Positions 15,779-34,599 of a stretch of 45,746 bases of DNA are shown here, in pieces. Under the pieces are notes generated by a model. The model worked only from the letters and a program-made list of their open reading frames with translations, ran no database searches and was not told the origin of the DNA. The stretch is taken from assembly GCA_024276495.1 (NCBI GenBank), contig JAJRXC010000015.1, forward strand, positions 1 through 45,746, in the 5' to 3' direction. Positions within the stretch are counted from its first letter, which is position 1. Each line of letters begins with the position of its first letter. This stretch comes from Actinomycetes bacterium (GTDB lineage: Bacteria > Actinomycetota > Acidimicrobiia > Acidimicrobiales > Aldehydirespiratoraceae). The position numbers were made by a program, and so were the translations under genes.

Positions 15779-15784
15779 TATAAG
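15779..15784 (+). promoter_or_regulatory. Candidate -10 element for the BMP transporter operon
   Basis: TATAAG stands in an AT-rich pocket (15765-15785) that is striking in this GC-rich DNA. It lies about 20 bases before the GGGAGGGAGGGG ribosome-binding region of the first permease. No good -35 hexamer is found 16-18 bases upstream, so the call rests on the -10 match and position. Confidence 0.35.
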
Positions 15785-15817
15785 CTCTCGCAGGTCTCGA
15801 TCGGGAGGGAGGGGACC

Positions 15818-17883: not shown

Positions 17884-17947
17884 CCCGGCGGGGTCGTACC
17901 AATGCGGGCCGTCACCGACCCGCACCACCCATAGGAGGGAACCCGAA

Positions 17948-19120: not shown

Positions 19121-19136
19121 CCCCGACGCGGCCCGG

Positions 19137-19168
19137 GGGGGGTCGAACGGCACGCCGTTCGACCCCCC
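19137..19168 (+). terminator. Strong intercistronic hairpin between binding protein and ATPase genes
   Basis: Perfect 15-base arms (19137-19151 and 19154-19168) made of GGGGGGTCGAACGGC and its complement are separated by only AC, so a tetraloop with 14 pairs is realistic. No T-run follows; instead GGGGCGCG. Such stems after binding-protein genes often slow 3' decay or partly terminate, raising binding protein over ATPase. Full termination is unlikely because the ATPase gene needs this transcript. Confidence 0.7.
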
Positions 19169-19208
19169 GGGGCGCGTTCTCCGATCAACGAAACCCGAGG
19201 TGCTCACC

Positions 19209-20735
19209 ATGACACCGATGCTCGAGATGCGAGGGATCACGAAACGATTCCCCGGCGTGCTGGCCAACGACAAGGTCGACCTGACCGTCGAGGCCGGGGA
19301 GATCCACACCCTGCTCGGCGAGAACGGCGCGGGCAAGAGCACGCTCATGAAGGTGCTCTTCGGGCTCTATCACCCCGACGAGGGCGAGATCCGCATCAAC
19401 GGCGACCCGGTCACGGTGTCCTCTCCCGCCGACGCGATCGCCCGCCACATCGGGATGATCCACCAGCACTTCATGTTGGTGCCGACACTGACCGTTGCCG
19501 AGAACGTCGCGCTCGGCACCAAGTCGACCCGGGGCCTGCTGACCGATCTCGACCATGTGTCCGAACGGGTCGCGGCGATCTCCGACCAGTACAACCTCCG
19601 GGTCGACCCCCGCGTCGAGGTCTGGAAGCTCGCGGTCGGTGAGCGTCAGCGAGTCGAGATCATCAAGGCGCTCTACCGCGACGCCCACCTGTTGGTGCTC
19701 GACGAACCGACCGCGGTGCTGACGCCACAGGAGGTCGAGGAGTTGTTCGTCATCCTCGACCAGATGAGAAACGACCAGAAGGGGCTGATCTTCATCAGTC
19801 ACAAGCTCCGTGAGGTCATGGCGATCTCCGACGAGATCACCGTGTTGCGCCACGGGCGGGTCACCGGCCACACCCGACCCGACGACACCGACCGCCAACA
19901 GCTCGCCGACATGATGGTGGGCCGGGAGGTGTTGCTCGCTCCCGACCGGCCCCCGGTCGAGGTCGGTGATGCCCGCCTGGTCATCCGGGGGCTGACGGTG
20001 AGAAGCGACCGGGGCACCGTCGCGGTCGACAACATCGATCTCGACGTGCGATCGGGGGAGATCCTCGGGATCGCCGGGGTCAGCGGCAACGGCCAGCGGG
20101 AGTTGGCCGAGGCCATCGTCGGGCTTCGCGATCCGCTGCCGGGCTCGTCGATCGAGGTCAACGGACACCAATCGGTCGGTGCGGGAACCAAGGAGATTCG
20201 CAACGCGGGGCTCGCGTACGTTCCCGAGGAGCGGATGAAGGACGGGGCGATCGGCGAGTTCACGGTCAGCGAGAACATCATGCTGGTCGATCATGCCGAG
20301 CCGCGCTACGTCCGCCGGGGGTTTCTGCGCCGCGGTGAGATCCGCGAGCAGAGCCGGCGTCTGGTCGACGAGTTCGCGGTGAAGACCCCGAGCCTCGAGA
20401 CCCCCACCTCGAGCCTGTCGGGGGGCAACATCCAAAAGGTGATCCTCGCTCGCGAGCTCAGCACGTTGCCGACCGTGCTGATCGCGGCGCAGCCCACTCG
20501 GGGGGTCGACATCGGGGCCGCCGAGTACATCCACGCCCGACTCATCGAGCAGCGAGGGGCCGGTACGGCGGCGTTGGTGATCTCGGAGGATCTCGACGAG
20601 CTCCTCGGACTGGCCGACCGGATCGCCGTGATGTTCGAAGGCCGGGTGATGGCGATCATCGACATCGAAGACGCGACCCGGGAGTCGATCGGTCTCCTGA
20701 TGGCCGGGGTCGACGGCGGGCACGAGACTTCGTAG
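19209..20735 (+). CDS. BMP-family (nucleoside-type) ABC transporter ATPase, two nucleotide-binding domains
   Basis: The product has 508 residues from the ATG at 19209, behind GAGGTG at 19197-19202 (a GTG at 19200 lies inside that ribosome site). The first domain has Walker [10 protein letters not shown], Walker [12 protein letters not shown] and a divergent signature ([11 protein letters not shown]). The second has a non-canonical Walker A (GVSGNGQRE), signature LSGGNIQK and Walker B-like LIAAQPTRG. This asymmetry is normal for the RbsA/YufO-type double ATPases. It powers the two permeases and the BMP lipoprotein upstream. The order permease-permease-SBP-ATPase is unusual; SBP first is more common. 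Confidence 0.93.
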
Positions 20736-20745
20736 CCTCACCGGA

Positions 20746-21726
20746 GTGCAGCGAACCAACGCCCTGGCCGGCTCCGTCAACCTGATGCCGGTGGGCCCGG
20801 TCGCCCTCGTGGCGGAGCTCGCGGCCGAAGCGGAACGACTCGGCTATCACCGCTGTTGGGTCTACGACGAAGGGCTGGCGACGCGCGACGTCTACATCAC
20901 GCTCGCCGCGGTCGCCGCGGCGACGAGCACGATCCGGATCGGGCCGGGGATCACCAACCCGTTCACCCGCCATCCTGGCGTCACCGCCAACGCGATCGCG
21001 TCGCTCGACGAGTACAGCGGGGGACGCGCGTTCCTCGGCCTCGGCGCCGGCGGCGGGCTCACCCTCGACCCGCTCGGAATCGAACGCCGCCGGCCCCTCG
21101 CCGCCGTCGAGGAGATGCTCGACTCGACCCGACGTCTGTGGAGCGGCGCCCGAGTCGACCTTCACGGGCGGACCATCGATCTTCGCGCCGCGAGCCTCTC
21201 GATGGCGAGGGACGGGATCGAGATCCACCTGGCCGGTCGTGGTCCGCGAATGATCGAGCTGGCCGGACGACTGGCCGACGGCTTCTACCTGAGCTACGTC
21301 CACAAGGAGCTGCTGGGGCCCACGGTCGAGACGCTCCGGGCGGTCACCGCACGACCGATGACCGTCACCTACTCGACCAGGATCGTCGTGACCGACGACG
21401 ATTTCGAGGCGGCCCGGCGCGACCTGACCTTTCGCCTCCCCGACTCGCCGCCCGATGTCCACGAGCGACTGGGAATCGGCCCGGCCGACGTCGATGCCCT
21501 GCGCGCCGCGTTGGCCGAAGGGGGCCCGTCGGCCGCCGCCCATCTGGTCCGCGACTCGTGGGTGGCACCGTTCGTGATCGCCGGCACTCGTGACGAATGC
21601 GGCCGGGAGCTGGCCGAGCTCGCCGCCGAGCACGGCCTCGACGAGTTCCTGTTGCAGGTCAACGATCTCGACGCCGGGTCGGCGCTGATGGCCGACACGA
21701 TGGGGATGATCTCAGCCCGATCCTGA
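20746..21726 (+). CDS. LLM-class (F420-dependent type) oxidoreductase A
   Basis: The product has 326 residues from a GTG at 20746, ten bases after the ATPase stop; the ribosome site is weak (CCGGA). It is a luciferase-like TIM barrel: LAAEAERLGYHRCWVYDEGL, 'TSTIRIGPGITNPFTRHP', 'EYSGGRAFLGLGAGG', and a late 'WVAPFVIAGTRDECGRELAELA'. The family usually uses F420 or FMN for hydride transfer. It is a close paralogue of the product of 38179-39147. Its last 15 bases overlap the end of the convergent UbiX-like gene. Substrate unknown; its position at the end of the transporter operon suggests it acts on an imported compound. Confidence 0.88.
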   Translation: MQRTNALAGSVNLMPVGPVALVAELAAEAERLGYHRCWVYDEGLATRDVYITLAAVAAATSTIRIGPGITNPFTRHPGVTANAIASLDEYSGGRAFLGLGAGGGLTLDPLGIERRRPLAAVEEMLDSTRRLWSGARVDLHGRTIDLRAASLSMARDGIEIHLAGRGPRMIELAGRLADGFYLSYVHKELLGPTVETLRAVTARPMTVTYSTRIVVTDDDFEAARRDLTFRLPDSPPDVHERLGIGPADVDALRAALAEGGPSAAAHLVRDSWVAPFVIAGTRDECGRELAELAAEHGLDEFLLQVNDLDAGSALMADTMGMISARS

Positions 21727-22284
21727 CCAGCGGGCCAGTCCCGGCACCGCGATGCCGAGGTGTTCGAGCGCCCGTCCGACCGAATGCGACACGATCTCGT
21801 CGATCGTGCCCGGACGGTTGTAGAACGCCGGCACCGGCGGCTGCACGATCGCACCCATCTCGGTCACCCGTTCCATGAGGCGGAGGTGGCCGAGGTGGAA
21901 GGGCGTCTCCCGCACCATCAACACCAGGGGACGGCGTTCTTTGAGCATCACGTCGGCCGCCCGCACGATCAGGTCAACGCTGAACGAGTGGGCCACCCCG
22001 GAGAGGGTCTTGATCGAGCACGGCGCGATGATCATGCCCACCGAGGTGAACGAGCCCGACGCGATCGGTGCCGCGATGTCGCGGGGACCGTGGACATGGT
22101 CGGCCAGCTTCTCGAGATCGCCGGTCGACAGGTCGGTCTCGATCCCCAGGGTCTGACGAGCCGACGGGGTGACGACGAGATGCGTCTCGATCCCGTCGAT
22201 CGTCGACAGCAACTCGAGCGACTTCACTCCGTAGATCACCCCGCTGGCGCCGCTGATTCCGACGACCACCCGCGTCGGGGTCAT
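21712..22284 (-). CDS. UbiX-like flavin prenyltransferase
   Basis: The product has 190 residues from the ATG at 22282-22284. It shows the flavoprotein motif VVVGISGASGVIYG, then 'APIASGSFTSVGMIIAPCSIKTLSGVAHS' and 'ERRPLVLMVRETPFHLGHLRLM', all typical of UbiX/PAD1. These enzymes join dimethylallyl phosphate to FMN to make prenyl-FMN, the cofactor of UbiD decarboxylases. The start overlaps the stop of the UbiD-like gene (ATGA), which makes the functional pairing strong. An open frame continuing upstream within the UbiD gene is a shadow. Confidence 0.93.
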   Translation of the reverse strand: MTPTRVVVGISGASGVIYGVKSLELLSTIDGIETHLVVTPSARQTLGIETDLSTGDLEKLADHVHGPRDIAAPIASGSFTSVGMIIAPCSIKTLSGVAHSFSVDLIVRAADVMLKERRPLVLMVRETPFHLGHLRLMERVTEMGAIVQPPVPAFYNRPGTIDEIVSHSVGRALEHLGIAVPGLARWSGSG

Positions 22285-23630
22285 CCCAGGTACCGGGTGA
22301 GGTCCACCGGGGCGTAGGCCACCCGTTCGCCGTACTCGCGCCGTTCGCGCTTGTACGTGGCGTCGATGCCGACCTTCACCCCGACCCCGCGATTGTCGGC
22401 CACCGGGTCCATCTCGTGGCCCTGGGCGTGGGGAACGGTGAAGACGTCGTCGCTCCAGTGCACCCGGTTGGTGATGGCCCAGAGCACGTCGGACGGTTGC
22501 GACACGTCGACGTCGCGATCGACGACGACGACGTTGCGAATGTTGATGTGGGCGGTCATCGCCGCCATCGCGAGGTTGCGGGGAGTCCCCGGATCGTCGC
22601 GATCGACGGAGACGACCGCGAGGAATCCGTTCCCGTAGGGCGGGATGTGGACGTCGGCACCGGCATCGAGATGGCGGACGAACCGACGGAGCAGGGGCTC
22701 CCGGGGAAGCACGTTGCCGATGTAGATGTGCTCGTACCAGCCGGGAACGATCGTCTGATAGATGGGGTCGTCGCGCCACGAGACCGAGGTGATCTCGACC
22801 GTGGGGCTCTCCCACATCTCCCCCAGGTAGCCGTGGAACTCCGCCAGCGGACCCTCGGGGGCCCGCGTCGCCGGATGGATCATTCCCTCGAGCACGATCT
22901 CGGCCCGCGCCGGTATGTCGATGTCGACATCGACCCCGCGGCACACCTCGACGCCGCGACCGCGGATCGCGCCGGCGATCAACAGCTCGTCGATCGGGGT
23001 GCGCACGCCGGCCGCGATCATGATGGCCGGATCGAGCCCGATCGCGAGGGCGACCGGGAACGGCGCGTCGGGGTCGGGGCGCGATTTCATGAACGTTCCG
23101 ACGTCGCGCCACTCGTTCACGTTGAATCCGAGCGTGTTGCGACCCATTCGCAACATCCGGTTGTACGAGAGGTTGCCGCGGCCGCTGACCGGGTCTTTGG
23201 TGACGGTCACGGCGCCCGTGATGAACTCCCCGCCGTCGCCCCGCGAGTGGATCGGTATCGGCAGGGCCGTGAGGTCGACCTCGTCCCCCCGGACCGTGTT
23301 GGCCTGCCACGGTGCCGAATCGACGGTGTCGGTCGGGAGGGCGTTGGCGGGGTCGAGGACCTCCCCCATCTTGTCGACGATCTGCTCGATCGGGCATCCG
23401 AGCGCGACCGCGGCGAGTCGCCGGCTGGCGACTCCGCCGGTGAAGATCGGCCAGGGCGAACCGGCGACGTCGGTGAAGAGGGCCGCTCCCGCATCGGCGC
23501 GTTGCATCGCCGCGGCGACATCGGAGAGCTCGTAGTCGAGCGCGACCGGTGCGGAGATCCTCGACAACAGGCCCTGATCCTCGAGTGCGTCGATGTGGCT
23601 GCGCAGGTCGGTCATCTCGGCGTTGGTCAT
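22281..23630 (-). CDS. UbiD-family prenyl-FMN-dependent decarboxylase
   Basis: The product has 449 residues. Family features: an Arg-containing 'GRGNLSYNRMLRMG' segment, the acidic pair in 'AEIVLEGMIHP' and 'APEGPLAEFHGYLG' that supports decarboxylation, and 'TVPHAQGHEMDP' near the C-terminus. The ATG at 23628-23630 follows AGGG. It decarboxylates (or carboxylates) an unsaturated or aromatic acid. It is coupled to its cofactor synthase UbiX. Since the locus also holds N-heterocycle-type enzymes, an aromatic or heteroaromatic acid is a reasonable substrate class, but which one cannot be read from sequence. Menaquinone biosynthesis (futalosine route) uses a related decarboxylase and is the main alternative. 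Confidence 0.9.
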   Translation of the reverse strand: MTNAEMTDLRSHIDALEDQGLLSRISAPVALDYELSDVAAAMQRADAGAALFTDVAGSPWPIFTGGVASRRLAAVALGCPIEQIVDKMGEVLDPANALPTDTVDSAPWQANTVRGDEVDLTALPIPIHSRGDGGEFITGAVTVTKDPVSGRGNLSYNRMLRMGRNTLGFNVNEWRDVGTFMKSRPDPDAPFPVALAIGLDPAIMIAAGVRTPIDELLIAGAIRGRGVEVCRGVDVDIDIPARAEIVLEGMIHPATRAPEGPLAEFHGYLGEMWESPTVEITSVSWRDDPIYQTIVPGWYEHIYIGNVLPREPLLRRFVRHLDAGADVHIPPYGNGFLAVVSVDRDDPGTPRNLAMAAMTAHINIRNVVVVDRDVDVSQPSDVLWAITNRVHWSDDVFTVPHAQGHEMDPVADNRGVGVKVGIDATYKRERREYGERVAYAPVDLTRYLG

Positions 23631-23667: not shown

Positions 23668-24390
23668 TCAGCTCGCCGGCGCCGTCGGACCGTAGACCGC
23701 GGTGCCGCCGGCGATCAGGGCCCACCTCCGGGTTCCGAGCTCGAAGTGCCACCACTCCCCTTCGAAGACGACGAATCCCTCCGACCGCATCGACCAGTAC
23801 AGGAAGCGGCGCAGCTCACGATCGGGCCCCGGTGTCCCCTCGAGGTGGGCGACATGGGCGCGGCTCGTCGTGTCGTCGAACCCACAGCCGGGCGCGAGCG
23901 GGGTCGATTCGAACGTGAGGGTGAGGTCGACGGCGCCGCCGGTGAGGTGCGGCGGCGGGGTCGCCGGATCATCCGAGACCGGCGCCATGAACCCCGGCTC
24001 GATCGTGGGATCGGCGATCGCGATGTCGTAGAGCTCCCGTTGCAGGGCCAGTGGCCGCCAGGCGTCGAAGACCGCGAGGCCCCAGGGCGCGGGGAGCGCG
24101 TCGGCGACCGCGTAGAGCCGCTCGGCGACGCCGACCCGAAGCCAGGTGTCGGGAATCGCGTGGTCCCACCCTCCGTGCCAGTAGTTCGCCAGGGTGCGGA
24201 TCCGGCGGTGCGCGACCCGAACGAGGGGTTCGGCGACGGGTCCGGTGACCTCGGACCCCTCGCTCCCGATCAGCGCCGGAAGCGCGGGCTGCGCGTCGAT
24301 GCCCGGCAGGACCGACCCGAACACCTGCGAGCACGGGACCGTGAACGTCGGCTCGTCGAAGCTCGGCCGTCCGGTGTGAGCCGCGCTCAT
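23668..24390 (-). CDS. VanX/DdpX-like D-alanyl-D-alanine dipeptidase
   Basis: The product has 240 residues. It carries the M15D zinc-peptidase pattern: AVFDAWRPLALQRELY, the zinc-binding 'PPHLTGGAVDLTL' (His and Asp), and 'EGEWWHFELG' (catalytic Glu and third zinc ligand His). There is no signal peptide, so it acts in the cytoplasm on D-Ala-D-Ala or another dipeptide. Its ATG overlaps the stop of the YqeC-like gene (ATGA), making it the last gene of the molybdenum-hydroxylase operon, an unexpected partner. No VanH/VanA genes are nearby, so glycopeptide resistance is not indicated. Confidence 0.88.
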   Translation of the reverse strand: MSAAHTGRPSFDEPTFTVPCSQVFGSVLPGIDAQPALPALIGSEGSEVTGPVAEPLVRVAHRRIRTLANYWHGGWDHAIPDTWLRVGVAERLYAVADALPAPWGLAVFDAWRPLALQRELYDIAIADPTIEPGFMAPVSDDPATPPPHLTGGAVDLTLTFESTPLAPGCGFDDTTSRAHVAHLEGTPGPDRELRRFLYWSMRSEGFVVFEGEWWHFELGTRRWALIAGGTAVYGPTAPAS

Positions 24391-25130
24391 CGGGCGACGC
24401 CCGCGATCTCGGGGGACTCCGTCGGATCGAACGGTGCGACCGCGACGACCGGAACATCGGCGCCGAGGATCGCCGTCAGCTCTTCGACGAAGGCGGCCTC
24501 GCGCTCGGTGACCTTGTTGACCATCACCGCGAAGCGGGCCCCGGCCGGGCAGCCCTTGCGGGATCCCCGCCGGCTGTGCAGCACCGCCGCGAGCCGCGCC
24601 GGGGTGAGCCGGACATACGGTGAGCAACCGGCGATGGCGGCGACCCGCATCGGCCGGTGGCACTGATCGGCGATCACCCGTCCCAACGCGTCGGCGCCGA
24701 CGCAGGCGACGACCATCGTCGCGGTGGCCGGCACGACGGGCTCGAACGACCGGGGGGCCTTGAATGGGCGACGGCGGGAACCGTCGGCTTCGACGACGAC
24801 ATGATCGACCACCGTGAACCAGCCGTCGCAGACCCGAGGGGAGACGCCGACCGCCTTGTGCCCCCCGTCGGCTCCCCACACCAGCGCCACCCGATCCCGA
24901 TCCAGGGTGTGGGCGAGCTCCGGTTCGGTCGGCGAGAAGAGCACCGGGTGACCGCCGGTGCGATCCTTCCCCATCTTGGTGGTGGTGGTCAGCACGACCG
25001 ACCCGTCGAGTTGACCTCCGAGGGCGAACAACGCGGTGGTCTTGCCGCCCCCGCCCACGAGGGCGACGTGCTCGTGGTGCCCCAGCCCCAGCGCGCCGGC
25101 GAGATCGGCGATCCCTACCGGTTCGACCAT
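24387..25130 (-). CDS. yqeC: YqeC-like selenium/molybdenum-hydroxylase maturation protein
   Basis: The product has 247 residues. A P-loop (LVGGGGKTTALFALGG) opens a NTPase fold, followed by VVLTTTTKMG, VVVEADGSRRRPFKAP and VMVNKVTEREAA. This pattern matches YqeC, a protein linked by comparative genomics to insertion of labile selenium into molybdenum hydroxylases. It overlaps the preceding YqeB gene by 16 bases and the VanX-like gene by four. Its biochemical step is not established; ATP- or GTP-driven activation of the cofactor is the usual suggestion. Confidence 0.88.
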   Translation of the reverse strand: MVEPVGIADLAGALGLGHHEHVALVGGGGKTTALFALGGQLDGSVVLTTTTKMGKDRTGGHPVLFSPTEPELAHTLDRDRVALVWGADGGHKAVGVSPRVCDGWFTVVDHVVVEADGSRRRPFKAPRSFEPVVPATATMVVACVGADALGRVIADQCHRPMRVAAIAGCSPYVRLTPARLAAVLHSRRGSRKGCPAGARFAVMVNKVTEREAAFVEELTAILGADVPVVAVAPFDPTESPEIAGVAR

Positions 25131-25900
25131 GTCGCCACCGCCTCCGCCACTCCACCGCCGACCGCCAGCGCCTTGTCGGAGATCTCGAAACAGGCCGACC
25201 GGGCACAGCCCGGGTCGATGTCGCCGATCTTGACCCCCGCCGCCACCTCGACCCCCGGCGCGATGAGACCGCGGACCCGACCGGCGAACGGGGAACGCAC
25301 CACGGACCCGCCGACCGATCCGATCACCTGGCCGGCTTCGACCCGGTCCCCGATGGCCGCCGTCCACGTCGCGGCCCCGGCCTCCGGGGCCCGAAGCACC
25401 CGTTCGGCGCCCCGGCCCCCGACGGTTCCGGGAACGCCCGTGTCGGCCGCCGCCCCGCCCTGCCAGAACACCCGCCCGAGGTGGTGACCACGCTGGGTCT
25501 CCACAACGGCGTGGCAGTCGACACCGGCGGTGAACCCCGGCCCGACGCCGACGACCAACGGCGCGTCGTCGATCGTCGTGTCGATGTTGCGCTTGGCCAC
25601 CCGGGCGTCGACGACGACGTCGGCATCGATCGACGGGAGGCCGGGGGCGACCACGACGGCCACGACGCCGGTGTGGGCCAGGGTGACCGCGGCGGTGGCC
25701 GAGTCGGCGAGCTCGGCCCGCATCCCCTCGATGTCGACGGTTCCGTCGGTGACCGCGGTCGACACCGCCACCGCTCGGCGAACGGTCAACGGGGCCGACA
25801 ACTCGGTGACGACGACCGCCCAACCGGCCCGAGCGAGCCGCCAGACGATGCCGGTCGCGAGGTCTCCTCCACCCCGGATCAGGCAGAGATCACGGGCCAC
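25115..25900 (-). CDS. yqeB: YqeB-like selenium-dependent molybdenum hydroxylase accessory protein
   Basis: The product has 261 residues from a GTG at 25898-25900. It begins with LCLIRGGGDLATGIVWRL, an NAD-fold-like start conserved in the YqeB (EF2563) family. It ends with 'DPGCARSACFEISDKALAVGGGVAEA', the family's C-terminal signature. Comparative work ties YqeB to organisms with SelD and labile-selenium molybdenum hydroxylases. It overlaps XdhC by 11 bases. A biotinyl/lipoyl-like stretch ('GDRVEAGQVIGSVGGSVVRSPFAGRVRGLI') lies in the second half. Confidence 0.9.
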   Translation of the reverse strand: MARDLCLIRGGGDLATGIVWRLARAGWAVVVTELSAPLTVRRAVAVSTAVTDGTVDIEGMRAELADSATAAVTLAHTGVVAVVVAPGLPSIDADVVVDARVAKRNIDTTIDDAPLVVGVGPGFTAGVDCHAVVETQRGHHLGRVFWQGGAAADTGVPGTVGGRGAERVLRAPEAGAATWTAAIGDRVEAGQVIGSVGGSVVRSPFAGRVRGLIAPGVEVAAGVKIGDIDPGCARSACFEISDKALAVGGGVAEAVATWSNR

Positions 25901-26645
25901 GCCGGTGTCCGATCACCTCGGCGAGGATGCTGAGCGCGATCTCTTCGGGCGTCTCCGCGTTGATCTCGATCCCGATCGGTGCGTGGACCCGACCGAGATC
26001 CGAGTCGGCGATGCCGCGATCCGACAACCCGGCGCGGGTCGTGTCCCAGCGCCGCCGGCTCCCCATGAGGCCGATGTAGCCGGCCGGGGTGGCGAGCAGC
26101 GCCGGCAGGATCTCCAAGTCGAGCTTGACGTTGCGGGTGACCATGACGATCGCATCGTCGGCGGTCACCGGGTGGGTCGCGAGGGCATCCGCGATCGGGC
26201 CGGTGAGGGCGACATCGACATGGTCGGCCCCGTCGAGCACATCGGCCCGGTCGTCCCAGACGATCGTGCGAAAGCCGATCCACTGGGCGAGATCGGACAC
26301 CGCGCGACCGACATGGCCGGCACCGATGACGAAGAGGTTCGGGGTGGGCATGTAGGGCTCCAGATAGATCTCGGCCTCGCCTCCGCAGACTCCGGCGTCG
26401 CCGTCGGCGGGATCGATGAGGTTGTAGGTGATGAGTCGGGGCCGGCCGTCGACCAGCGCCGCGGCGGCCTCGACGGTGACACGGTGCTCCATCTCACCCC
26501 CGCCGATCGTGCCGAGAGTTCGACCATCGGCGAAGACGAGCATCTTCGAGCCGGGTCGACGGGGAACGGAGTCTCGCGTCCTCACGACGGTCGCGAGGGC
26601 CACCGTCTCACCGCGGGCGATCGCCGCCGCGAGCTCGGGGATCAC
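25890..26645 (-). CDS. xdhC: XdhC-family molybdenum cofactor sulfuration/insertion protein
   Basis: The product has 251 residues from a GTG at 26643-26645 that overlaps the stop of the amidohydrolase gene. The N-terminal XdhC domain has 'ATVVRTRDSVPRRPGSKMLVF' and 'GTIGGGEMEH', then 'GVCGGEAEIYLEP'. The C-terminal Rossmann domain carries LFVIGAGHVGRAV and 'GYIGLMGSRRRWD'. XdhC binds molybdenum cofactor, helps give it the terminal sulfur (or selenium) and delivers it to the hydroxylase. The upstream open-frame extension into the amidohydrolase gene is a shadow. Confidence 0.93.
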   Translation of the reverse strand: MIPELAAAIARGETVALATVVRTRDSVPRRPGSKMLVFADGRTLGTIGGGEMEHRVTVEAAAALVDGRPRLITYNLIDPADGDAGVCGGEAEIYLEPYMPTPNLFVIGAGHVGRAVSDLAQWIGFRTIVWDDRADVLDGADHVDVALTGPIADALATHPVTADDAIVMVTRNVKLDLEILPALLATPAGYIGLMGSRRRWDTTRAGLSDRGIADSDLGRVHAPIGIEINAETPEEIALSILAEVIGHRRGP

Positions 26646-27964
26646 CGGCCCGCCTTCCAGAGCCGGGCGGCCTGTTCTCGCGAATGGGCTCGGAGCCGGC
26701 CGAGGTCGGCACCGAGCACGACGCCGGACCGGACCCGCCAGGTGCCGGCGACCATGACGTCGCGGACATGGCTGTGGTTGCGCCACAAGACCACCTGGTC
26801 GGCGAGGTTGTGGGCCGTGGGGGGGCTGGGGAAGTCGGCATCGACGATCTGGAGATCCGCGGACCATCCGGGATCGAGTCGGCCGACCCGTTCGAGTCCG
26901 AGGGCGCGAGCGCCGCCGACGGTCGCCATCGACAGGACCCGGTCGGCGGGCATCGTCGCCGGATCCATCAGCCGGGCCTTGTGGATGAGGAAGGCGCCCC
27001 GCATCACCTCGTAGAAGTCGTTGATGTAGCCGTCGCTGCCGAGCCCGACCGTCACCCCGGCATCGAGCAGCTCGGGCATGGGTGCGATTCCCCCACCGAC
27101 CTCGCAGTTGGCCAGCGGCATGTGGGTCACCCGCACGTCACGTTCGCACAACAGCTCCCGTTCCCGCTCGGAGAGGTGCACGCACTGGCTGGCGAGCAGA
27201 CGCGGCCCGGCGATGCCGAGACGGTCGTAGAGCTCGAGGGCTCGTTCCCCCAGGTTCTTCTCGGCCCACTCGCCCTCGTGGACACCCTCGTTGACGTGGC
27301 AGTGGCTCATCACCCCGAGGTCCGTGGCCCGGCCGAACGCCTCGGTGATGTAGTCGGCGGAACAGGTGAAGGTCGTGTGCCAACACATCAGGCCGCCGAC
27401 GAGACCATCGGGGTCGCATGCCTCGATCAGCCCGACGTTCTCCTCGATCCCGAGCCGGGCGATCTCGGCGCCTGCCCGCTCCGTCGCCTCGAAGCTCAGC
27501 AGCCCCCGCATGCCCCGTCGTTCGACGATCTCCTTTTGGGCCAGGAGGACCTCGGGAAGCGCATGGGGTGCTTCGAGGATGTCGTAGAAGGTCGTCGTTC
27601 CCGAACGGAGCATCTCCGCGGTGACCTGGTCGGTGGCCGCCTCGATCATGGCCACATCGAGGGCATCTTCGACCTTGGGCCACCAGTAGTCGGCCAGGAA
27701 GCTCCAGAAGTCGCCGGGCCCGTCGCCGTCGACCGCCGGAATGCCGTGGGCGAGGGTGCCGTACAGGTGGACGTGGGCGTTGACGAATCCGGGCATCACG
27801 AGATGACCCGAGGCGTCGACGATCTCCTCGTCGGGGTGCGCGGCGCGCAGGTCGTCCGCCGGACCGATCGCGTCGACCGAACCGTTCACGACCCGCACCC
27901 CCCAGTCGCGCTCGGCCGGCCGGTCGGCGGCCACCAGGAGCCAGTCGGAGAGGATGAGGGTCAT
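26642..27964 (-). CDS. ssnA: SsnA-like metal-dependent amidohydrolase (aminohydrolase)
   Basis: The product has 440 residues and a typical AtzA/TrzN-type amidohydrolase fold. Metal ligands are visible: HxH in NAHVHLY, a His in the CWHTTFTCS/HCHVNEG region, and Asp in GLGSDGYIND. An ADLQIVD-type C-terminal strand is present. Gene context (XdhD-like and YgfM-like subunits, YqeB, YqeC) matches E. coli ssnA, which lies in the xdhD locus and whose substrate is unresolved. It probably deaminates a purine-like or other N-heterocycle produced or consumed by the molybdenum enzyme. It overlaps neighbours at both ends by four bases, so translation is coupled. Confidence 0.9.
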   Translation of the reverse strand: MTLILSDWLLVAADRPAERDWGVRVVNGSVDAIGPADDLRAAHPDEEIVDASGHLVMPGFVNAHVHLYGTLAHGIPAVDGDGPGDFWSFLADYWWPKVEDALDVAMIEAATDQVTAEMLRSGTTTFYDILEAPHALPEVLLAQKEIVERRGMRGLLSFEATERAGAEIARLGIEENVGLIEACDPDGLVGGLMCWHTTFTCSADYITEAFGRATDLGVMSHCHVNEGVHEGEWAEKNLGERALELYDRLGIAGPRLLASQCVHLSERERELLCERDVRVTHMPLANCEVGGGIAPMPELLDAGVTVGLGSDGYINDFYEVMRGAFLIHKARLMDPATMPADRVLSMATVGGARALGLERVGRLDPGWSADLQIVDADFPSPPTAHNLADQVVLWRNHSHVRDVMVAGTWRVRSGVVLGADLGRLRAHSREQAARLWKAGR

Positions 27965-30894
27965 GCGTCGTTCAACGCCGCCCAGACCCGTTCGGGGGTG
28001 AACGGCAAGTCGTTGATGGCGACCCCGGTCGCGTTGAGGATCGCGTTGCGCAACGCCGGCGCCACTCCGTCCTTCGGGATCTCCGCGACTGCTTTCGCGC
28101 CGAACGGGCCGCTGTCCTCCAACGTCTGCACCAGGTACACGACGGTGTCCGGCATCTCGTCGGCCCGGTAGATCTTGTACGGACCGAAGGAGGTGTTGAG
28201 CAGGCGACCGTCGTCGTCGAACGCGAACTCCTCACAGTGGGCGTAGCCGAGGGCCTGCGCCATCCCTCCCTCGACCTGGCCGCTCGCGGTGATCGGGTTG
28301 ATCGCCACGCCGCAGTCGACCGCCATCACCAGCTTGGTGACCGTGACCTGCCCGGTCTCGACGTCGACCTCGATCTCCGCCATCTGGGCCGCGAACGGCG
28401 GCGGACAGTCCGGCGACACGTAGGACGACGTGCCCATGATCTGTTCCTGCTCCTGGGTGTGCAACGAGTCGAGGGCGATGTCCTCCAGGCTGACGGAGCG
28501 GCCATCGGCGGCGTAGGCCCGGCGATCCCGCAGCTCAATCGTGCAGGGTTCATCGACGTCGAGCAGCATCGCCGCCCGCTCCTTGATCCGTTTGCGAGCC
28601 ACCTCGGCCGCCTGCATCGCCGCGGTGCCCGAGATGTAGGTGGTGGAGCTCGCGTAGGCACCGGTGTCAAACGGGGTCATGTCGGTGTCGGACGAGTAGA
28701 CCTTGATGTCCTCGAGCCGCACCCCGAGCACCTCGGCCGCGATCTGGCCGAGGACGGTGTCGGCCCCGGTGCCGAGATCGGTGGCCCCGACCAACATGTT
28801 GAACGAACCGTCGTCGTTGAGCTTGATCGAGCACCCACCCATGTCGAGGAACGGGATGGCGGTCCCGTGCATGCAGAACGCGAAGCCGATCCCGCGACGG
28901 ATGTGGGGGCGATCGGCCGGCTCCCTCCAGGCGGGGTCGTCGCGGCGGTGCCACCCGATCTCCCGGAGGGCCTGGGCGACACATTCCTCGATGCCCTCGG
29001 ACATGATCCGCGGGTATTCGTCGAGCTCGTCCTCGACCACGGCCCGCTCCCCGAGGTGGGGGGCGATGTCGATCTCCGAACCGGTCGAGACCCAGTTCTT
29101 GCGCTTGAACTCGATGACGTCGTATCCGAGCTCCCGGGCGATGTCCTCGAGGTGGGCTTCGAGCGCGAACTCGGCCTGCGGGGCGCCGTAGCCGCGATAG
29201 GCGCCCGGCACCGGGATGTTGGTGTAGACGACGTCACAGTGGAACCGCTTGTTCGGGCAGTCGTACTGGCTCAGCCCCCGCATGCCGGTGACGGTCTGCA
29301 CGGTGTAGCCGTGGGTGCCGTACGGGCCGGTGTTGCCGATCACGTACATGTCCTGGGCGACGAGCTTGCCGTCGTCGTCGACACCGGTGCGGTAGGTGAT
29401 CGTCTGGGGATGGCGGGTGCGGCTCGACGCGAACTCCTCTTCGCGGGTCAGCTCGAGTCGGCACGGCCTCCGGGTGGCCTTGGCCAGGTGACCGACGATG
29501 TCCTCGAGGAGCATCTCTTGTTTCGCGCCGAACCCACCGCCGATGCGGGGTTTGATGATGCGGACGTCCTTGATGTCCATCTCGAGCAGCGGGGCGACCA
29601 TGCGGCGGGCGTGGAACGGCACCTGGGTCGCGGTGCGGATCACCATGCGCTCGTCCTCGTCGATCCATGCGATGGAGATGTGGGGCTCGATCGGGCACTG
29701 CTGGACCTGGTGGACCCGGAAGGTCTGTTCGAACACGTGGGCGGCGTGGGCGAGGGCATCCTCGACGTCGCCCCGCTGCGCCTTGATCTGGTGGACGATG
29801 TTGCGCTCGGCGTCGAAGATCTCCTCGGTGTCGTCCTCGTCGTGGATCTTCGGCGCGTCCGGTTCCATCGCCTCGCGCTCGTCGAAGATCGCGGGGAGCA
29901 CCTCATAGGTGACGTCGATCAGCCGCACCGCCTCTTCGGCGATCTCGACGGTCTCGGCCGCCACCGCGGCGACCCGGTCTCCGACGTGGCGGACCTTCGT
30001 GTCGAAGCTCACCTGGTCGTGGGGGTGCGGGTTCGGCCAGCTCTGGCCACCCGATGCGTACTTGATCCGGGCCACGTTCTTGTGGTGCAGGACCGCGTGC
30101 ACGCCGGGCAGGGCTAGGGCGGCGCGGTCGTCGATGTCGACGATCCGGGCGTGGGCGTGAGGGCTGGTGAGCAGCCGGCAGTAGAGCATTCCCCGCGGCT
30201 CGATGTCGTCGGTGAAGGCGGGGTTTCCCTTGGCCAACCGGACCGCGTCGACCTTGACCTCGGGTTTGCCGACGACGGCCATGTCGGGGACGTCGCGCGA
30301 CGGGATCAGGCGAGGCACCGCCGACGAGCCGGCCGGGGCGCGATCCGCGGGGTCGTAGACCGCGGCCTCGCCACCGTCGGTCAACGGCTCGAGGATCATG
30401 GGCGCGAACGGCGCCGCCGTCTCTCCCCGGAGCACCGCGGCCGCCCGCTTCACCGCTTCGACCGGTTTCACATAGGCGGTCTCGCGGTCGAGGATGCCGC
30501 TGAGCATGTCGCGAATCTCGGCCTCGGTCGGGTCGGGGTTCTCTGCGAGCAGCGCCAACGTCCCGAGGATCATGGCGCCCGCCGAGTAGCCCGACTGCAT
30601 GGCGCCGACCGCGGCGAACGCCGCCTGGATCGGGTGGAGCTCCCGTTCGGTGTTGAGCGATTCGACGGTGACGACCGAGTGGCCGTCGGCCTGGGCGGCG
30701 AGGATGACGTCGCTACTGGCCAACCGACCGTCGAACAGCACGGCCCCGGCACCGGTCTCACCGCTCGCGGAACCGAACTTCACGCTGAACATGCCTTCGC
30801 GGCGCAGCACGTCGCGCAGGTTGTCGGACGGCGAGACGTCGGTGGTCACCGTCGTGCCGTTGAGCTCGAACGAGATGGACAGGGTGTCGCTCAT
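27961..30894 (-). CDS. xdhD: XdhD-like molybdenum hydroxylase with cysteine-free [2Fe-2S]-type N-terminal domain
   Basis: The product has 977 residues. Residues ~1-150 have the fold pattern of a CoxS-type small subunit (SFELNGTTVTTDVSPSDNLRDVLRR, GAVLFDGRLASSDVILAAQADG, ELHPIQAAFAAVGAMQSGYSAGAMILG). All eight cluster cysteines are missing: the QCGYCTPG site reads QSGYSAGA and the CRCTGY site reads LDRETAY. From about residue 200 it is a molybdenum subunit: KVDAVRLAKGNPAFTDDI, RIGGGFGAKQEML, GAYRGYGAPQAEFALE, and the catalytic Glu region FGAKAVAEIPKDG. E. coli XdhD, as I recall it, is organised the same way. It is the second gene of the operon, overlapped by the FAD subunit upstream. Likely role: hydroxylate a purine-like ring with a Mo(-Se) cofactor. 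Which protein carries electrons is open. Confidence 0.92.
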   Translation of the reverse strand: MSDTLSISFELNGTTVTTDVSPSDNLRDVLRREGMFSVKFGSASGETGAGAVLFDGRLASSDVILAAQADGHSVVTVESLNTERELHPIQAAFAAVGAMQSGYSAGAMILGTLALLAENPDPTEAEIRDMLSGILDRETAYVKPVEAVKRAAAVLRGETAAPFAPMILEPLTDGGEAAVYDPADRAPAGSSAVPRLIPSRDVPDMAVVGKPEVKVDAVRLAKGNPAFTDDIEPRGMLYCRLLTSPHAHARIVDIDDRAALALPGVHAVLHHKNVARIKYASGGQSWPNPHPHDQVSFDTKVRHVGDRVAAVAAETVEIAEEAVRLIDVTYEVLPAIFDEREAMEPDAPKIHDEDDTEEIFDAERNIVHQIKAQRGDVEDALAHAAHVFEQTFRVHQVQQCPIEPHISIAWIDEDERMVIRTATQVPFHARRMVAPLLEMDIKDVRIIKPRIGGGFGAKQEMLLEDIVGHLAKATRRPCRLELTREEEFASSRTRHPQTITYRTGVDDDGKLVAQDMYVIGNTGPYGTHGYTVQTVTGMRGLSQYDCPNKRFHCDVVYTNIPVPGAYRGYGAPQAEFALEAHLEDIARELGYDVIEFKRKNWVSTGSEIDIAPHLGERAVVEDELDEYPRIMSEGIEECVAQALREIGWHRRDDPAWREPADRPHIRRGIGFAFCMHGTAIPFLDMGGCSIKLNDDGSFNMLVGATDLGTGADTVLGQIAAEVLGVRLEDIKVYSSDTDMTPFDTGAYASSTTYISGTAAMQAAEVARKRIKERAAMLLDVDEPCTIELRDRRAYAADGRSVSLEDIALDSLHTQEQEQIMGTSSYVSPDCPPPFAAQMAEIEVDVETGQVTVTKLVMAVDCGVAINPITASGQVEGGMAQALGYAHCEEFAFDDDGRLLNTSFGPYKIYRADEMPDTVVYLVQTLEDSGPFGAKAVAEIPKDGVAPALRNAILNATGVAINDLPFTPERVWAALNDA

Positions 30895-31610
30895 CGGATG
30901 GCCTCCACGGCTCGGGCACCGAGTATTCGCGCCAGCTCGAGCCGGTACTCGGCGGTGCCGCGGAAGTCGGCCGGGGGGGTGAGGCCCGCGCTCGGGTCGA
31001 GCGGGTCGACGAGCACGGGGGTGTCGGCGACGCCGGTGAGAGCCAACGCGGTCGTGCCGTTCGATGTTCGGGCGACCGCCGCGACGATCGGGGCGTCGGC
31101 GGGCGTGCGGGCCGTGTGGGCTTCGGCCGCGGTGCCTCCCGGATCGATCGTCACCGCGGTGATCACCGCACCCTCGGGCACACCGGTGGCGAGAAGCTCG
31201 GCCAGACCCCGTTGCTCCGCCCCGGCCAGCTCCACCCGGGCATCGGCGACGAGCAGCGCGGCGAGCAGCAGGCTCTCGCCCGACCCGGCGGCCACCGTTC
31301 CGCCGATCGTGGCGAGGCTGCGCAACGTGGAAGGGGCTTCGGCCCGGGCGATCGTGCGCATCCAGGCGGGGACCGCGTCGGCGTCGCCGCCGGCGGCCAA
31401 CGTGGCCATGGCGCCGATCCGCACCCGGTCGCCGTCGTGTTCGATCGTGTCGAGGCCGAGTGACTGGAGGTCCACCACCTCGAGGTCGCTCGGGGCGCGG
31501 TCGGCGTTGACCACCGTGCCCCCCGCGAGCACGATTCGATTCGGTGCCTGCAGCAGGTCCATGGCCACATCGAGGCTGGTGGGTCGGTGATACGCGGCAA
31601 TCAGCGGCAC
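30891..31610 (-). CDS. ygfM: YgfM/CoxM-like FAD-binding subunit of molybdenum hydroxylase
   Basis: The product has 239 residues, shorter than most CoxM/XdhB subunits (about 280-290). The FAD motifs are recognisable: VLAGGTVVNADR (usually AGGT/Q with an Asn or Ser) and ATIGGTVAAGSGESLLLAALLVADA (TIGGN in classic members, here TIGGT). The end, 'DFRGTAEYRLELARILGARAVEAI', is family-like. It is the first gene of the minus-strand operon, with an ATG that begins just past the divergent control region. It should accept electrons from the hydroxylase and pass them to an acceptor, but the FeS relay expected in between is absent from the XdhD-like partner. Confidence 0.9.
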   Translation of the reverse strand: MPLIAAYHRPTSLDVAMDLLQAPNRIVLAGGTVVNADRAPSDLEVVDLQSLGLDTIEHDGDRVRIGAMATLAAGGDADAVPAWMRTIARAEAPSTLRSLATIGGTVAAGSGESLLLAALLVADARVELAGAEQRGLAELLATGVPEGAVITAVTIDPGGTAAEAHTARTPADAPIVAAVARTSNGTTALALTGVADTPVLVDPLDPSAGLTPPADFRGTAEYRLELARILGARAVEAIR

Positions 31611-32188: not shown

Positions 32189-33577
32189 TCAACGGGTCAG
32201 TCGGCTCTCGACCCCGGCCCGACGAAAAACGTCGCGGGCCGAGACCTCGGCGTCGGCGAGCAGCGCCGCTTCGTCGAGCATCACGACCTCCCGTTCGTCG
32301 ATCAGGATGCGGCCATCGACGATCACGTGGGTGACGTCGGCCGGGGTGGCGTTGAACACCAGCGCGCTCGGCACACGGTGCACCGGCGCCACGAAGACCG
32401 AGCCGAGGTCGACGATCACGAGGTCGGCCTTCCTGCCGGCCTCCAGCGAGCCGGTGAGCTGCGGGGTGCCGAACGCCCGGGCCCCTCCCCGACACGCCAT
32501 CGTGAGACTGTCCTCGGGTTGCAACGCCATCGCGTCGAGGTGGTGCACCTTCTGGAGCAGCACGGTCGCCTTGAGGACCTCGAACATGTCCTGACGGTTG
32601 TTGCTGCCCGGTCCGTCGCTCGCGAGGGCCACGGTGATGCCGCGGGCCCGCATGTCGAGGATCCGGGGAACCCCCGAAGCGAGATACATGTTGCTCACCG
32701 GGCAGTGCACCACCGTGGCGTCCCGGCGCGCGATGAGGTCCAACTCGGCGTCGTCGAGCCAGACGCTGTGGGCGAGCTGGAAGTCGGGACCGAGAAGACC
32801 GAGCTGCTCCAGCCACTCGACGTGGCGCAGCCCCCGTTCGTCGACGCTCATGTCGACCTCCGTCGCGGTCTCCGCGCAGTGGATGTGGGTGCCGGCCCCC
32901 CAGGTCCGGGCCTCGGCGACGGTGGCGCGCATCGCGTCGTCTGAGCAGCCCCACGGGATCAGGGGCGCCAGCTCGACACGGATCCGGTCGTCGTCGTGGC
33001 CGTGCCAACGGTCGCGGACCCGGCGGGTGCGTTCGATCACGGTGTCGGCGGACTCGCTCAACGACGGCTCGTAGTTGCGATCGGCCCACCCCCGGGCGAG
33101 CAGGAACCGGATGCCGAGCTCGTCGGCCGCCGTGCACACGCCGTCGTCGATGGTCTCGTCGATGTGGACGTACTGGTGGTCCATCACCGACGTCGCCCCG
33201 GTGCGCAGGTTCTCGACCAACCCGACCGTCGCGGCCAGCCGGGCCGACTCCCGGTCGAGGTGCACGGCCCCGGGCCAGATGCAGTCACGAAGCCAGTCGA
33301 GCAGCGGCTTGTCGTCGGCCAACCCACGAAAGAACGTCTGGAAGAGGTGGGTGTGGGCGTTGGTCATTCCCGGCATCACCGCCCGACCGGTCCCATCGAT
33401 CACGCGGCCGACCCGGGCCCGCACCTCGGCGGGCGCGGGACCCGACCCCACGGCCTCGATGCGGTCGTCGACCACGTGCACCCATCCCGGGTCGTGGACC
33501 GTGAACTCGTCGTCGACCGTCACGACCGCGGCACCGTCGACCAGGACGCCACCCGCCGGGCGGGAGGGCGGGGTCAC
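32189..33577 (-). CDS. Amidohydrolase, 8-oxoguanine-deaminase/TrzN-like
   Basis: The product has 462 residues from a GTG at 33575-33577 overlapping the LLM gene stop (GTGA). Metal ligands: NAHTHLFQ, the [12 protein letters not shown] helix, LAHSVWL, and ASDGPGSNN. '[21 protein letters not shown]' and '[14 protein letters not shown]' are characteristic of the TrzN/AtzA/8-oxoguanine deaminase branch. It likely deaminates or dechlorinates a triazine- or purine-like ring; the exact substrate cannot be read. It is distinct in sequence from the SsnA-like enzyme 4 kb away but of the same superfamily. The open frame upstream of the GTG runs into the LLM gene and is a shadow. Confidence 0.9.
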
Positions 33578-34599
33578 GGCGTCCAGTCGGCGAACGCGTC
33601 GATCACGGGCTTGATGTCGTCCATCATCGGGAAGAGGATCGGGCAGGTGACACCAGCGTCGATGTACTCCGCGACCTTCTCGCGACACTGATCGGCGGTG
33701 CCGACCGCCATCAGCTTGCGGACCAGTTCATCGGGGATCAGATGGGCGGCCTTGCGATAGTCGGCCTCGGTGGCCGGCCACCCGACGATCTCCTTGACCC
33801 GTTCGACGAGATCGGGATCGGCACCGGAGGCTTTCATGATGTGCGGTTCGGTCCCGAGGTAGTAGGCGACGAGCGACTTTCCGGTCAGCATCGCCTCGTC
33901 GGGGTCGTCGTCGGAGAGCGAGCAGACCAGCAGCTCGGGCCGATCGATGTCGGCGATCGTCTTGTCGACCTTGGCGGCGCCGGCCACCACGAGATCGACG
34001 GCCTCACGGATGTAGTCGGTCGAGACGACGTAGTTGAGCACGATGCCGTCGCAGATCTCGCCCGTCAGCTCCAACATCTTGGGCCCCGTCGCCCCGATGT
34101 AGATGGGGATGTCGCGCGGTCCGGTGTCGCCGAAGGCGACATCGAGCTTGACCCGGTCCAGTTGGACGAACTCACCGTCGTAGCTGACCTCCTCCATCGT
34201 GAAGAGCTGCCGGATCGCCTCGATGTTCTCGCGCATCGCGGTGAGGGGCTTGCGCCGGTCGGCTCCCACTCGCGAGGCGATCGGCTCCCACCACGCGCCC
34301 AGGCCCAGCATCACCCGGCTCTCGCCTTGCGGGGTCAAGCCGCCGAGCTCCCACATCGTGCTCCAAGTGGCGGCGATGACCGCGGGGTTGCGGGTGTAGA
34401 TCGGCAACACACCACTACCGAACCGCAGCGTCGTCGTCTCCGCGAGAAAGGCGCTCATCATCACCACGCAGTCGCGCGCGAGGCGGGTGTCCGCCTGCCA
34501 GATCTCGGAGAAACCCTTCTCCTCGGCGTACTTCACCATCTCGATCTCGTACGAGATCGGGTGTTTGTCCTGGAGATAGAGGGCCATTCGTTGTGACAT
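33574..34599 (-). CDS. LLM-class (F420-dependent type) oxidoreductase B
   Basis: The product has 341 residues from the ATG at 34597-34599, behind AGGAT with AGGAGG farther upstream. It is a luciferase-like barrel: '[49 protein letters not shown]', '[20 protein letters not shown]', '[29 protein letters not shown]'. Typical members use F420H2 or FMN. It is the gene upstream of the amidohydrolase and overlaps it, so the two should act in one pathway. It differs from oxidoreductases A and D and is nearer the methylenetetrahydromethanopterin-reductase-like subgroup. Confidence 0.88.

Follow-up and report, generated by a model that had tools for sequence, protein, structure and literature searches.

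The window, by which we mean the whole stretch of 45,746 nucleotides that was analysed, contains a gene for an XdhD-like protein of 977 amino acids (27961..30894, minus strand, ATG start), in which a cluster-less CoxS-like domain is fused to a molybdenum subunit (MoCoBD_1, MoCoBD_2, Ald_Xan_dh_C). Scores for MoCoBD_1 (262.7 bits), MoCoBD_2 (256.5 bits), and the a/b hammerhead domain (98.4 bits) were all above cut-off, and the protein is a molybdenum-subunit member of the xanthine oxidase family. On TIGR03313, the model for E. coli-type XdhD, it scored 654.9 bits, below the curated cut-off of 1101.9; XdhD of Cetobacterium also fell below this cut-off (1032.5), and that of E. coli scored 2122.8.

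All neighbouring genes described here lie on the minus strand as well. The gene overlaps by 4 bases with one encoding a YgfM-like FAD-type subunit of 239 amino acids (30891..31610; TIGR03312, 85.8 bits, below the cut-off of 241.5; PF00941, 59 bits). On its other side are genes for an SsnA-like aminohydrolase (26642..27964; TIGR03314, 245.2 bits, below the cut-off of 455.5), an XdhC-family maturation factor (25890..26867, with the true start inside the ORF; NF045664, 223.7 bits, below the cut-off of 350; PF13478 above cut-off), the selenium-dependent molybdenum cofactor protein YqeB (25115..25900; TIGR03309, 289.8 bits, cut-off 220), and an ORF containing the selenium cofactor biosynthesis protein YqeC (24387..25823; TIGR03172, 155.4 bits, cut-off 73.05, domain at residues 253-444). 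Beyond the YgfM-like gene are an amidohydrolase of the SsnA/deaminase superfamily (32189..33688; best NCBIfam match NF005557, 376.8 bits, below the cut-off of 522) and a luciferase-like (LLM) oxidoreductase, a putative F420-dependent reductase (33574..34596, approximate start; PF00296, 213.7 bits). YqeB adjoins the molybdenum subunit and SelD is encoded in the host genome (368.6 bits, one in-frame TGA), which is the gene context expected of a selenium-dependent molybdenum hydroxylase; judged by this context, the XdhD-like enzyme is most likely the product of a selenium-type operon.

The earlier note had proposed a search of the genome for an iron-sulfur partner. YgfK gave no match above the family cut-off in the whole genome; on another contig, a 625-aa frame next to a selenium-type XDH relative whose cysteines are intact matches the YgfK model at its two ends only. 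The genome encodes seven Fer2_2 domains, and the six besides that of the XdhD-like protein have both cysteine sets and all lie outside the window. YgeY and diaminopropionate ammonia-lyase, families of the E. coli pathway, had no match reaching cut-off in the host genome.

Cluster cysteines in the XdhD-like protein and its relatives

The CoxS-like domain spans residues 1-155 (30430..30894, minus strand), as delimited by Fer2_2, the ligand columns, and a structural model. Pfam Fer2_2 matched residues 76-149 with 65.6 bits (cut-off 30.3). The AlphaFold2 model of the whole protein had a mean pLDDT of 88.8 and a pTM of 0.91, with ten-residue pLDDT means of 82-96 over residues 1-160, and it matched the aldehyde oxidoreductase of D. 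gigas (1sij) over residues 4-976 (Z 38.0, rmsd 2.5, 861 residues). By homology and in the predicted structure, the CoxS fold is thus retained, as the earlier note had proposed for the first ~150 residues. It had also described both cluster-binding sets as replaced, and none of the eight aligned ligand columns indeed holds a cysteine. The four former distal [2Fe-2S] ligands (30709..30771, minus strand), a plant-type set, are now S42, T47, G50, and D62, and the four former proximal ligands (30481..30594, minus strand) are S101, S104, D136, and E138 (QSGYS ... LDRETAY); the columns were assigned by alignment with intact relatives. The domain presumably carries no bound metal.

A search within the window's own order yielded 18 orthologues at 70-87% identity, 17 of which have the N-terminus, and a further one (L123, 80% identity) was found separately. 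The eight cysteines were absent in 17/17 and in L123, making all 18 readable orthologues cluster-less; in the window's own genus, the gene was found in 0/6 other genomes at E 1e-100. As the orthologues agree, the loss is not a sequencing error, and an assembly error is ruled out in the same way. Relocation of a cluster to new cysteines was also ruled out: in the N-domain of the window clade (22 rows), the commonest other cysteine column is filled in 12/22 rows and stands alone.

The empty domain is still constrained. The divergence ratio between N-domain and molybdenum domain had the same median, 1.32, in cluster-less as in intact pairs. Its pN/pS (0.38) is looser than that of the molybdenum domain (0.22) and still below 1. 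The matching 5' part of xdhD is retained, to 80% or more, in 5128 of 5426 complete E. coli genomes, the best places all having at least 90% identity, as measured on DNA rather than residue by residue. A decaying pseudogene domain or an assembly error would account for the missing ligands and nothing more; given the constraint, the E. coli genomes, and the loss common to 18/18 own-order orthologues, we regard this explanation as already refuted.

Beyond the order, the picture is mixed. Classes are written as distal plus proximal cysteine count, so that 4+4 has both sets, 0+4 the proximal set only, and 0+0 none. Among 96 sequences typed, partly from the best 80 of 584 matches in a contig scan, 43 had none of the eight cysteines, 28 had all, 18 had the proximal set only, 1 the distal set only, and 4 one stray cysteine, while 2 were cut; as only the best 80 of 584 matches were taken, these counts do not give the frequencies of the classes in the population. 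The N-terminus is missing from L090, L103, and L115, three of the 80, and L073, initially 0+4, was classed as cut since its contig starts within the domain. A phylum search gave matches in 12 other genomes among 396: one is the cluster-less orthologue L123, and the other 11 are more distantly related proteins whose cysteines are all intact. E. coli K-12 XdhD, which the earlier note had thought similar, does lack all eight, reading D A D S / S N S D at the ligand columns; Cetobacterium XdhD, its nearest relative in the sampled set, has all eight. Likewise, the intact L074 and L119, whose distal set is gone, are 86% identical in the molybdenum domain. Cysteine loss as a uniform trait of the XdhD family is therefore not supported as written: it holds for the own-order orthologues and E. 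coli, whereas 28/96 relatives keep all cysteines and 19/96 exactly one cluster's set, an outcome of the kind that the earlier note had named as refuting its reading.

Repeated loss and replacement of the ligands

The losses were traced on a tree of the molybdenum domain, with 49 rows chosen from 92; the 92-row tree was made with FastTree, and both trees carry a long-branch warning for E. coli, Cetobacterium, and XdhA. The fewest changes on the 49-row tree were 10 distal and 7 proximal, and a cautious count, in which weak forks (L119/L077/L074, L104, and L122) were grouped by judgement, gave 7 distal and 6 proximal losses. Constraining the 15 cluster-less rows to a single clade was rejected (dlnL 766, p 3e-113), which rules out one ancestral loss. 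Cetobacterium XdhD clusters with E. coli XdhD on this tree, and the 0+0 rows L062 and L065 stand apart, flanking an intact clade, whereas the N-domain tree unites these two rows. The latter tree covers 140 columns, excludes the ligand columns as well as those next to them, and leaves out E. coli. Its cluster-less groups adjoin the intact relatives that they have on the molybdenum-domain tree, and a single cluster-less clade is rejected weakly (p 0.034). Because it follows the molybdenum-domain tree, domain swapping does not account for the pattern, and swapping of the N-terminal module was ruled out. Proximal-only sequences outnumber distal-only ones by 18 to 1 among the 96 typed. As read from these sequences and trees, the distal cluster is usually lost ahead of the proximal one, and the relay has been dismantled piecewise, more than once.

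Acidic residues are overrepresented among the replacements, at 17/39 replaced ligand positions versus 34/386 other changed positions (Fisher p 1e-7, from 9 distal and 6 proximal events); the cautious event list gave 23/52 versus 6.6 expected. Proximal ligands three and four became D/S and E/D, respectively, in six groups separately. Such convergence would suit a Ser/Asp/Glu set binding an oxygen-ligated centre in place of [2Fe-2S], but the first and second positions are variable (S, A, N, T, D, E, C), and we know of no fully oxygen-ligated redox centre in a CoxS-type fold. We consider this very improbable.

At the molybdenum site, the position of E616, which corresponds to Glu606 of E. coli XdhD and is expected to be Glu in a urate-to-2,8-dioxopurine reductase, holds Glu in 78/78 family rows and in 1/3 outgroup rows. 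E938, near the C-terminus, is Glu in 75/78 family rows, the other 3 being gaps, and we take it to be catalytic by correspondence to Glu1261 of bovine xanthine oxidase. The predicted catalytic Glu is unchanged throughout the family, despite the loss of the clusters.

Electron supply to the molybdenum site

The second FAD signature of the window's YgfM-like subunit reads TIGGT...ES in place of TIGGN...SD and is, by its residues, degenerate. Neither the Asn nor the Asp of the signature was kept in any of 54 YgfM-type subunits of the family loci, and E. coli YgfM lacks them too; the GGT/GG portions survive in most YgfM-like subunits, and the Cetobacterium subunit has a GGN...D signature. As the signature is equally degenerate in two-cluster and cluster-less relatives, its loss does not follow cluster loss within the clade. 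Among the best 80 of 584 matches, a FAD-type ORF was present at 23/24 0+0, 13/18 0+4, and 22/28 4+4 loci, at 0/4 0+1 loci, and not at the 4+0 locus; its presence at 23/24 0+0 loci rules out that cluster loss is due to loss of the FAD gene. L060 and L061 had none within 10 kb on either side. A full signature is present in another 15 FAD-type ORFs, spread over 14 of these 80 loci, where they might act with XdhD.

In bovine xanthine oxidase, Mo and FeS I are ~15 Å apart, FeS I and FeS II ~12 Å, and FeS II and FAD ~8 Å. The retained ygfM-like gene might point to a slow classical route, with the FAD of YgfM reducing molybdenum by long-range tunnelling across the scaffold; from these distances, however, the gap would lie far beyond usual single steps, and the FAD signature residues are gone in the clade's subunits as well as in YgfM of E. 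coli. A recent study reports that XdhD of E. coli, together with a partner of ~30 kDa, reduces urate to 2,8-dioxopurine with NADH, at 10 umol/L enzyme (PMC12507026). Such an activity would be compatible with a slow enzyme. Overall, we think this route improbable.

Equally improbable to us is a redox-neutral reaction, in which XdhD, as a transhydroxylase or dismutase, would use its molybdenum to pass oxygen or hydride from one purine to another, with no wire needed. It accounts for a molybdenum site that stays the same while clusters and FAD signature are lost, and for the absence of a nearby FAD-type ORF at L060 and L061, but the E. coli assay with NADH as reductant gave net urate reduction and E. 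coli mutants show net urate loss through XdhD (PMC12507026).

An external donor (YgfK, ferredoxin, or an F420- or DHO_dh-type flavoprotein) may instead dock at the former place of the distal cluster and FAD, delivering electrons first through the proximal cluster (0+4) and finally to the pterin (0+0). The distal-first order of loss fits a new docking site. Moreover, npdG, cofE, cofD, and an LLM protein adjoin XdhD in L104, and cofE in L077; L060 and L061, whose XdhD is FAD-less, have DHO_dh-family proteins nearby; and LLM genes are present in the window and cofD in its genome (gene calls at the relatives' loci are longest-ORF guesses). No single partner gene tracks the cluster-less state, however, as LLM relatives adjoin XdhD in many loci, whether intact, half, or cluster-less, and a docked protein would still be separated from the pterin by protein. 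In E. coli, the published assay required only NADH and the co-purified partner (PMC12507026). We hold an external donor to be unlikely, less so than the two preceding routes.

The explanation towards which we lean, by a small measure, is that the XdhD-like protein is a purine (urate-type) reductase of the XdhD kind, with a cluster-free N-domain as scaffold, a repeatedly dismantled relay, and both half-reactions at molybdenum. The CoxS-like domain would fill space beside the pterin and hold the enzyme in shape as an assembly, and the former thiolate places of both clusters would be taken by acidic and hydroxyl side chains. The relay from FAD through the distal to the proximal cluster would have been taken apart in pieces, repeatedly, around a constant molybdenum site, so that the enzyme may turn over without it. 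NADH, F420H2, or a reduced purine would act as hydride donor and reduce molybdenum directly, and the metal would then take oxygen off the substrate purine; for the window enzyme this is presumably urate. Electrons probably reach the molybdenum by a route not yet described, and a donor acting directly at the metal seems the most likely one. Against this stands the YgfM-like gene retained at 23/24 0+0 loci, a surprising finding were the FAD route no longer in use. Several observations given above count against it too: the GGT/GG portions survive in most YgfM-like subunits, degeneracy of the signature extends to two-cluster relatives, full-signature FAD-type ORFs occur in 14 of the 80 loci, and the N-domain has the higher pN/pS. 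The published assay would also be compatible with slow tunnelling from FAD to molybdenum. A more specific version is tentative: a wire-less enzyme, its molybdenum reduced directly by nicotinamide, F420H2, or purine, from which the FAD signature and then the distal and proximal clusters were removed in turn, several times, with acidic residues each time replacing the charge of the lost cluster and the empty domain giving the pterin an electrostatic scaffold.

Comparison with known systems

Two [2Fe-2S] clusters are regarded as a defining feature of the xanthine oxidase family, and a clade with one molybdenum site behind eight, four, or zero cluster cysteines amounts to a natural test of the purpose of the relay. 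E. coli XdhD, which performs the first step of gut urate breakdown, is of the cluster-less kind, yet its database name is Mo/Fe-S-binding subunit; the electron route is therefore a sharp question in a laboratory strain. The words "cysteine" and "2Fe-2S" do not occur in the urate-reduction text of PMC12507026, and no earlier mention of the cysteine loss was found in the open-licence literature consulted. Selenium-dependent molybdenum hydroxylases share YqeB, YqeC, and SsnA-like neighbours with the window and SelD with its genome, and a cysteine-less relay was not mentioned in the parts of that description consulted (Haft and Self 2008, PMC2276186).

E. coli XdhD (YgfN) and YgfM (TIGR03313/TIGR03312) resemble the window in the fusion of CoxS-like and molybdenum domains, the adjacent FAD-type subunit, SsnA, YqeB, and YqeC, and in lacking the eight cysteines while keeping the Glu606 equivalent. 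The two XdhD proteins share 39% identity, the window has LLM genes instead of an adjacent YgfK, and their losses are placed apart on the tree. Unlike the window protein, XdhD of Cetobacterium somerae, encoded in a uricolytic gene cluster, has the eight cysteines and a FAD subunit with GGN...D. The Desulfovibrio aldehyde oxidoreductase (MOP, 1sij/1dgj) shares the fused fold over residues 4-976; its solved structure contains two [2Fe-2S] clusters, for which the window protein has no ligands. Relatives of XdhD from Chloroflexota (Anaerolineae), at 46-66% identity among the best 80 of 584 matches, have the window's fused architecture, molybdenum site, and neighbours, but differ from it in carrying eight cysteines, the proximal set only, or none.

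Cysteine-free cluster sites in a constrained domain

The XdhD-like protein of 977 aa (27961-30894, reverse strand, from ORF translation) comprises a CoxS-like domain (residues 1-155) and a molybdenum subunit of the xanthine-oxidase family (residues 206-977), as delimited by domain profiles and a structure match. In an alignment with intact relatives, which hold cysteines in the same columns, the distal ligand positions are occupied by S42, T47, G50, and D62, and the proximal ones by S101, S104, D136, and E138. The motifs reported in the earlier note, QSGYSAGA and LDRETAY, proved exact, and the loss of all cluster cysteines that it described is real, with 8/8 ligand columns replaced. A sequencing or assembly error was ruled out, as all 17 own-order orthologs with an N-terminus, and one more, lack the eight cysteines. 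The remaining six Fer2_2 domains of the genome have theirs intact. E. coli K-12 xdhD (11317-14187 of its locus, L001) is annotated as an Fe-S-binding subunit, though it lacks all eight cluster cysteines; at least 80% of the xdhD 5' stretch is present in 5128 of 5426 E. coli genomes in RefSeq.

The ratio of N-domain to molybdenum-domain divergence was the same in cluster-less and intact pairs (1.32 each) and stood at 1.25 in proximal-only pairs, and pN/pS among 11 own-order sequences was 0.38 in the N-domain versus 0.22 in the molybdenum domain. The cluster-less N-domain is constrained, more loosely than the molybdenum domain. The predicted fold is confident and is that of Desulfovibrio aldehyde oxidoreductase over residues 4 to 976; together with the divergence ratio, this upholds the proposal that the domain is retained as structure.

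Repeated loss behind a constant active site

Named genomes were scanned and the best 80 of 584 loci, mostly from Acidimicrobiia and Chloroflexota, were typed; adding E. coli, the window, and its own-order relatives brought the set to 96 sequences. None of the eight cysteines was kept in 43 of these sequences and all eight in 28, while 18 kept the proximal four only and one the distal four only; four had one stray cysteine and two were cut. Uniform loss across the family, which the earlier note had suggested, is therefore not borne out. Across the typed set, the cysteines of one cluster were almost always lost together. The sole distal-only case among the best 80 loci (L086, 10001-12961) reverses the usual order. 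The gene itself was found in 0/6 other genomes of the window's genus (E 1e-100). Its distribution is patchy, and most sampled family genera with xdhD keep it in every genome sampled.

Trees were built from the molybdenum domain alone (92 rows in FastTree and 49 in IQ-TREE under a mixture model; loci from the best 80 of 584), so that the cysteine trait cannot shape them. The 49-row tree requires at least 10 distal and 7 proximal changes; certain forks have weak support, and a more cautious tally gives 7 distal and 6 proximal losses. A single ancestral loss was rejected, since forcing the 15 cluster-less rows into one clade costs 766 log-likelihood units (p = 3e-113). E. coli XdhD groups at 100/100 support with that of Cetobacterium, which keeps all eight cysteines and is encoded in a uricolytic cluster; both are long branches. 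Swapping of the N-terminal domain as the cause of this pattern was ruled out, because an N-domain tree without the ligand and neighboring columns recovers the principal groupings (L086 with L091; L077 with L119 and L074; L062-L065 together; the window clade together). In that tree, one cluster-less clade is weakly rejected (p = 0.034).

Independent losses converge on similar residues. Proximal CRC became DRE in the window clade, L062-L065, and L122, SRE in L086, and SRD in L077 and E. coli; 3 of 22 window-clade rows retain one cysteine, as CRE. At the distal set, several groups now read D-S/T-D-G, and the window clade reads S-T-A-D. Among positions at which cluster-less representatives depart from the intact-majority residue, acidic residues occupy 17/39 ligand positions versus 34/386 others (Fisher p = 1e-7); on the cautious event list they occupy 23 of 52 positions, with 6.6 expected. 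Most losses introduced two acidic residues. An oxidized [2Fe-2S] cluster with four thiolates carries a charge of -2, and we infer that the acidic replacements preserve it.

The accessible text of Li et al. (PMC12507026) singles out Glu606 of the E. coli active site. Its counterpart, E616, is Glu in 78/78 family rows of every cluster class, and E938 in all 75 rows having a residue there (loci from the best 80 of 584); elsewhere in the active site there is one exception, the Arg R567, which is Gln in E. coli XdhD. The earlier observation and its structural reading stand and the uniform family trait does not. The relay has been removed repeatedly, cluster by cluster, behind an unchanged active site, a stranger picture than uniform loss.

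FAD-type subunits and the electron route

The best 80 of 584 loci encode two kinds of FAD-type proteins. All 54 YgfM-type subunits, whatever their cluster class, lack the Asn and Asp of the TIGGN...SD signature, which we take to contact FAD; the loss of this signature in the XdhD clade hence predates, or is independent of, cluster loss. Both residues are absent from E. coli YgfM, whereas the Cetobacterium subunit keeps them. The 15 others, in 14 loci, keep the signature, are mostly 470-515 aa long, and lie apart from XdhD; examples separate from the YgfM-type ORF are found at L092 (14057-15484) and L122 (18654-20123), with 12 further loci. At L060 and L061, no FAD-type ORF was found within 10 kb either side of XdhD; DHO_dh-family proteins are encoded nearby (L060, 8836-9969; L061, 1718-2728), one directly upstream.

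According to the accessible text of Li et al. (PMC12507026), E. coli XdhD was purified with a partner of ~30 kDa, probably YgfM, and converts urate with NADH to 2,8-dioxopurine; no rate or NADH-free control was found described there for this step, and "cysteine" and "2Fe-2S" are absent from the main text. An enzyme without cluster ligands performs a two-electron reduction, so that an internal relay is not needed for the chemistry. We favor a route in which a hydride donor would reduce molybdenum directly at the active site. Second to this, outside docking partners could deliver electrons to XdhD; slow tunneling from FAD to molybdenum is less likely, purine-to-purine exchange at XdhD less likely still, and a new oxygen-ligated metal in the former cluster domain the least likely. 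For the clostridial counterpart XdhAC, a commentary lists the electron donor as unknown (PMC12990295).

Purine and selenium context

On the same strand, from high to low coordinates, lie genes for an LLM oxidoreductase, an amidohydrolase, a YgfM-like FAD-type protein, XdhD, an SsnA-like aminohydrolase, an XdhC-family protein, YqeB, and YqeC; against family profiles, YqeB and YqeC exceed their curated cut-offs and the SsnA, FAD, and XdhC matches fall below theirs. UbiD decarboxylase and UbiX-like flavoprotein genes (21712-23630, reverse strand) adjoin this purine operon. Nearby, on the forward strand, are a second LLM gene (20746-21726) and a purine-nucleoside-type ABC transporter set of permease, PnrA-like binding protein, and ATPase (15758-20735).

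LLM relatives adjoin XdhD in all main cluster classes, and no YgfK relatives were detected in the loci lacking both cysteine sets (both among the best 80 of 584 loci). Family matches place the F420 genes npdG, cofE, and cofD and an LLM gene beside XdhD at L104 (3417-7632), and cofE at L077 (1690-2460); L122 (5491-8930) appears similar by eye. The window's genome contains cofD, and gave no convincing match to YgeY or the ammonia-lyase. For Chloroflexota, replacement of YgfK by an F420 enzyme is proposed in the accessible text of Li et al. (PMC12507026); the window LLM gene (33574-34596) probably carries out this step.

The same genome encodes an XDH relative of the selenium type whose cysteines are intact (contig C73, 102871-107485; L017, 9164-14516) and which scores 777 bits against TIGR03311 (cut-off 830). 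A 625-aa frame beside it matches YgfK at its two termini only, the middle missing. Profile match and reading frame identify a SelD (contig C48, 14587-15504; L015) whose active-site position holds an in-frame TGA (FSHGAG*GCK), probably a selenocysteine codon. Genes of the YqeB/YqeC/SsnA/XdhC/SelD type are tied to selenium-dependent molybdenum hydroxylases in the accessible text of Haft and Self (PMC2276186), and the window operon, together with this SelD, matches that gene set.
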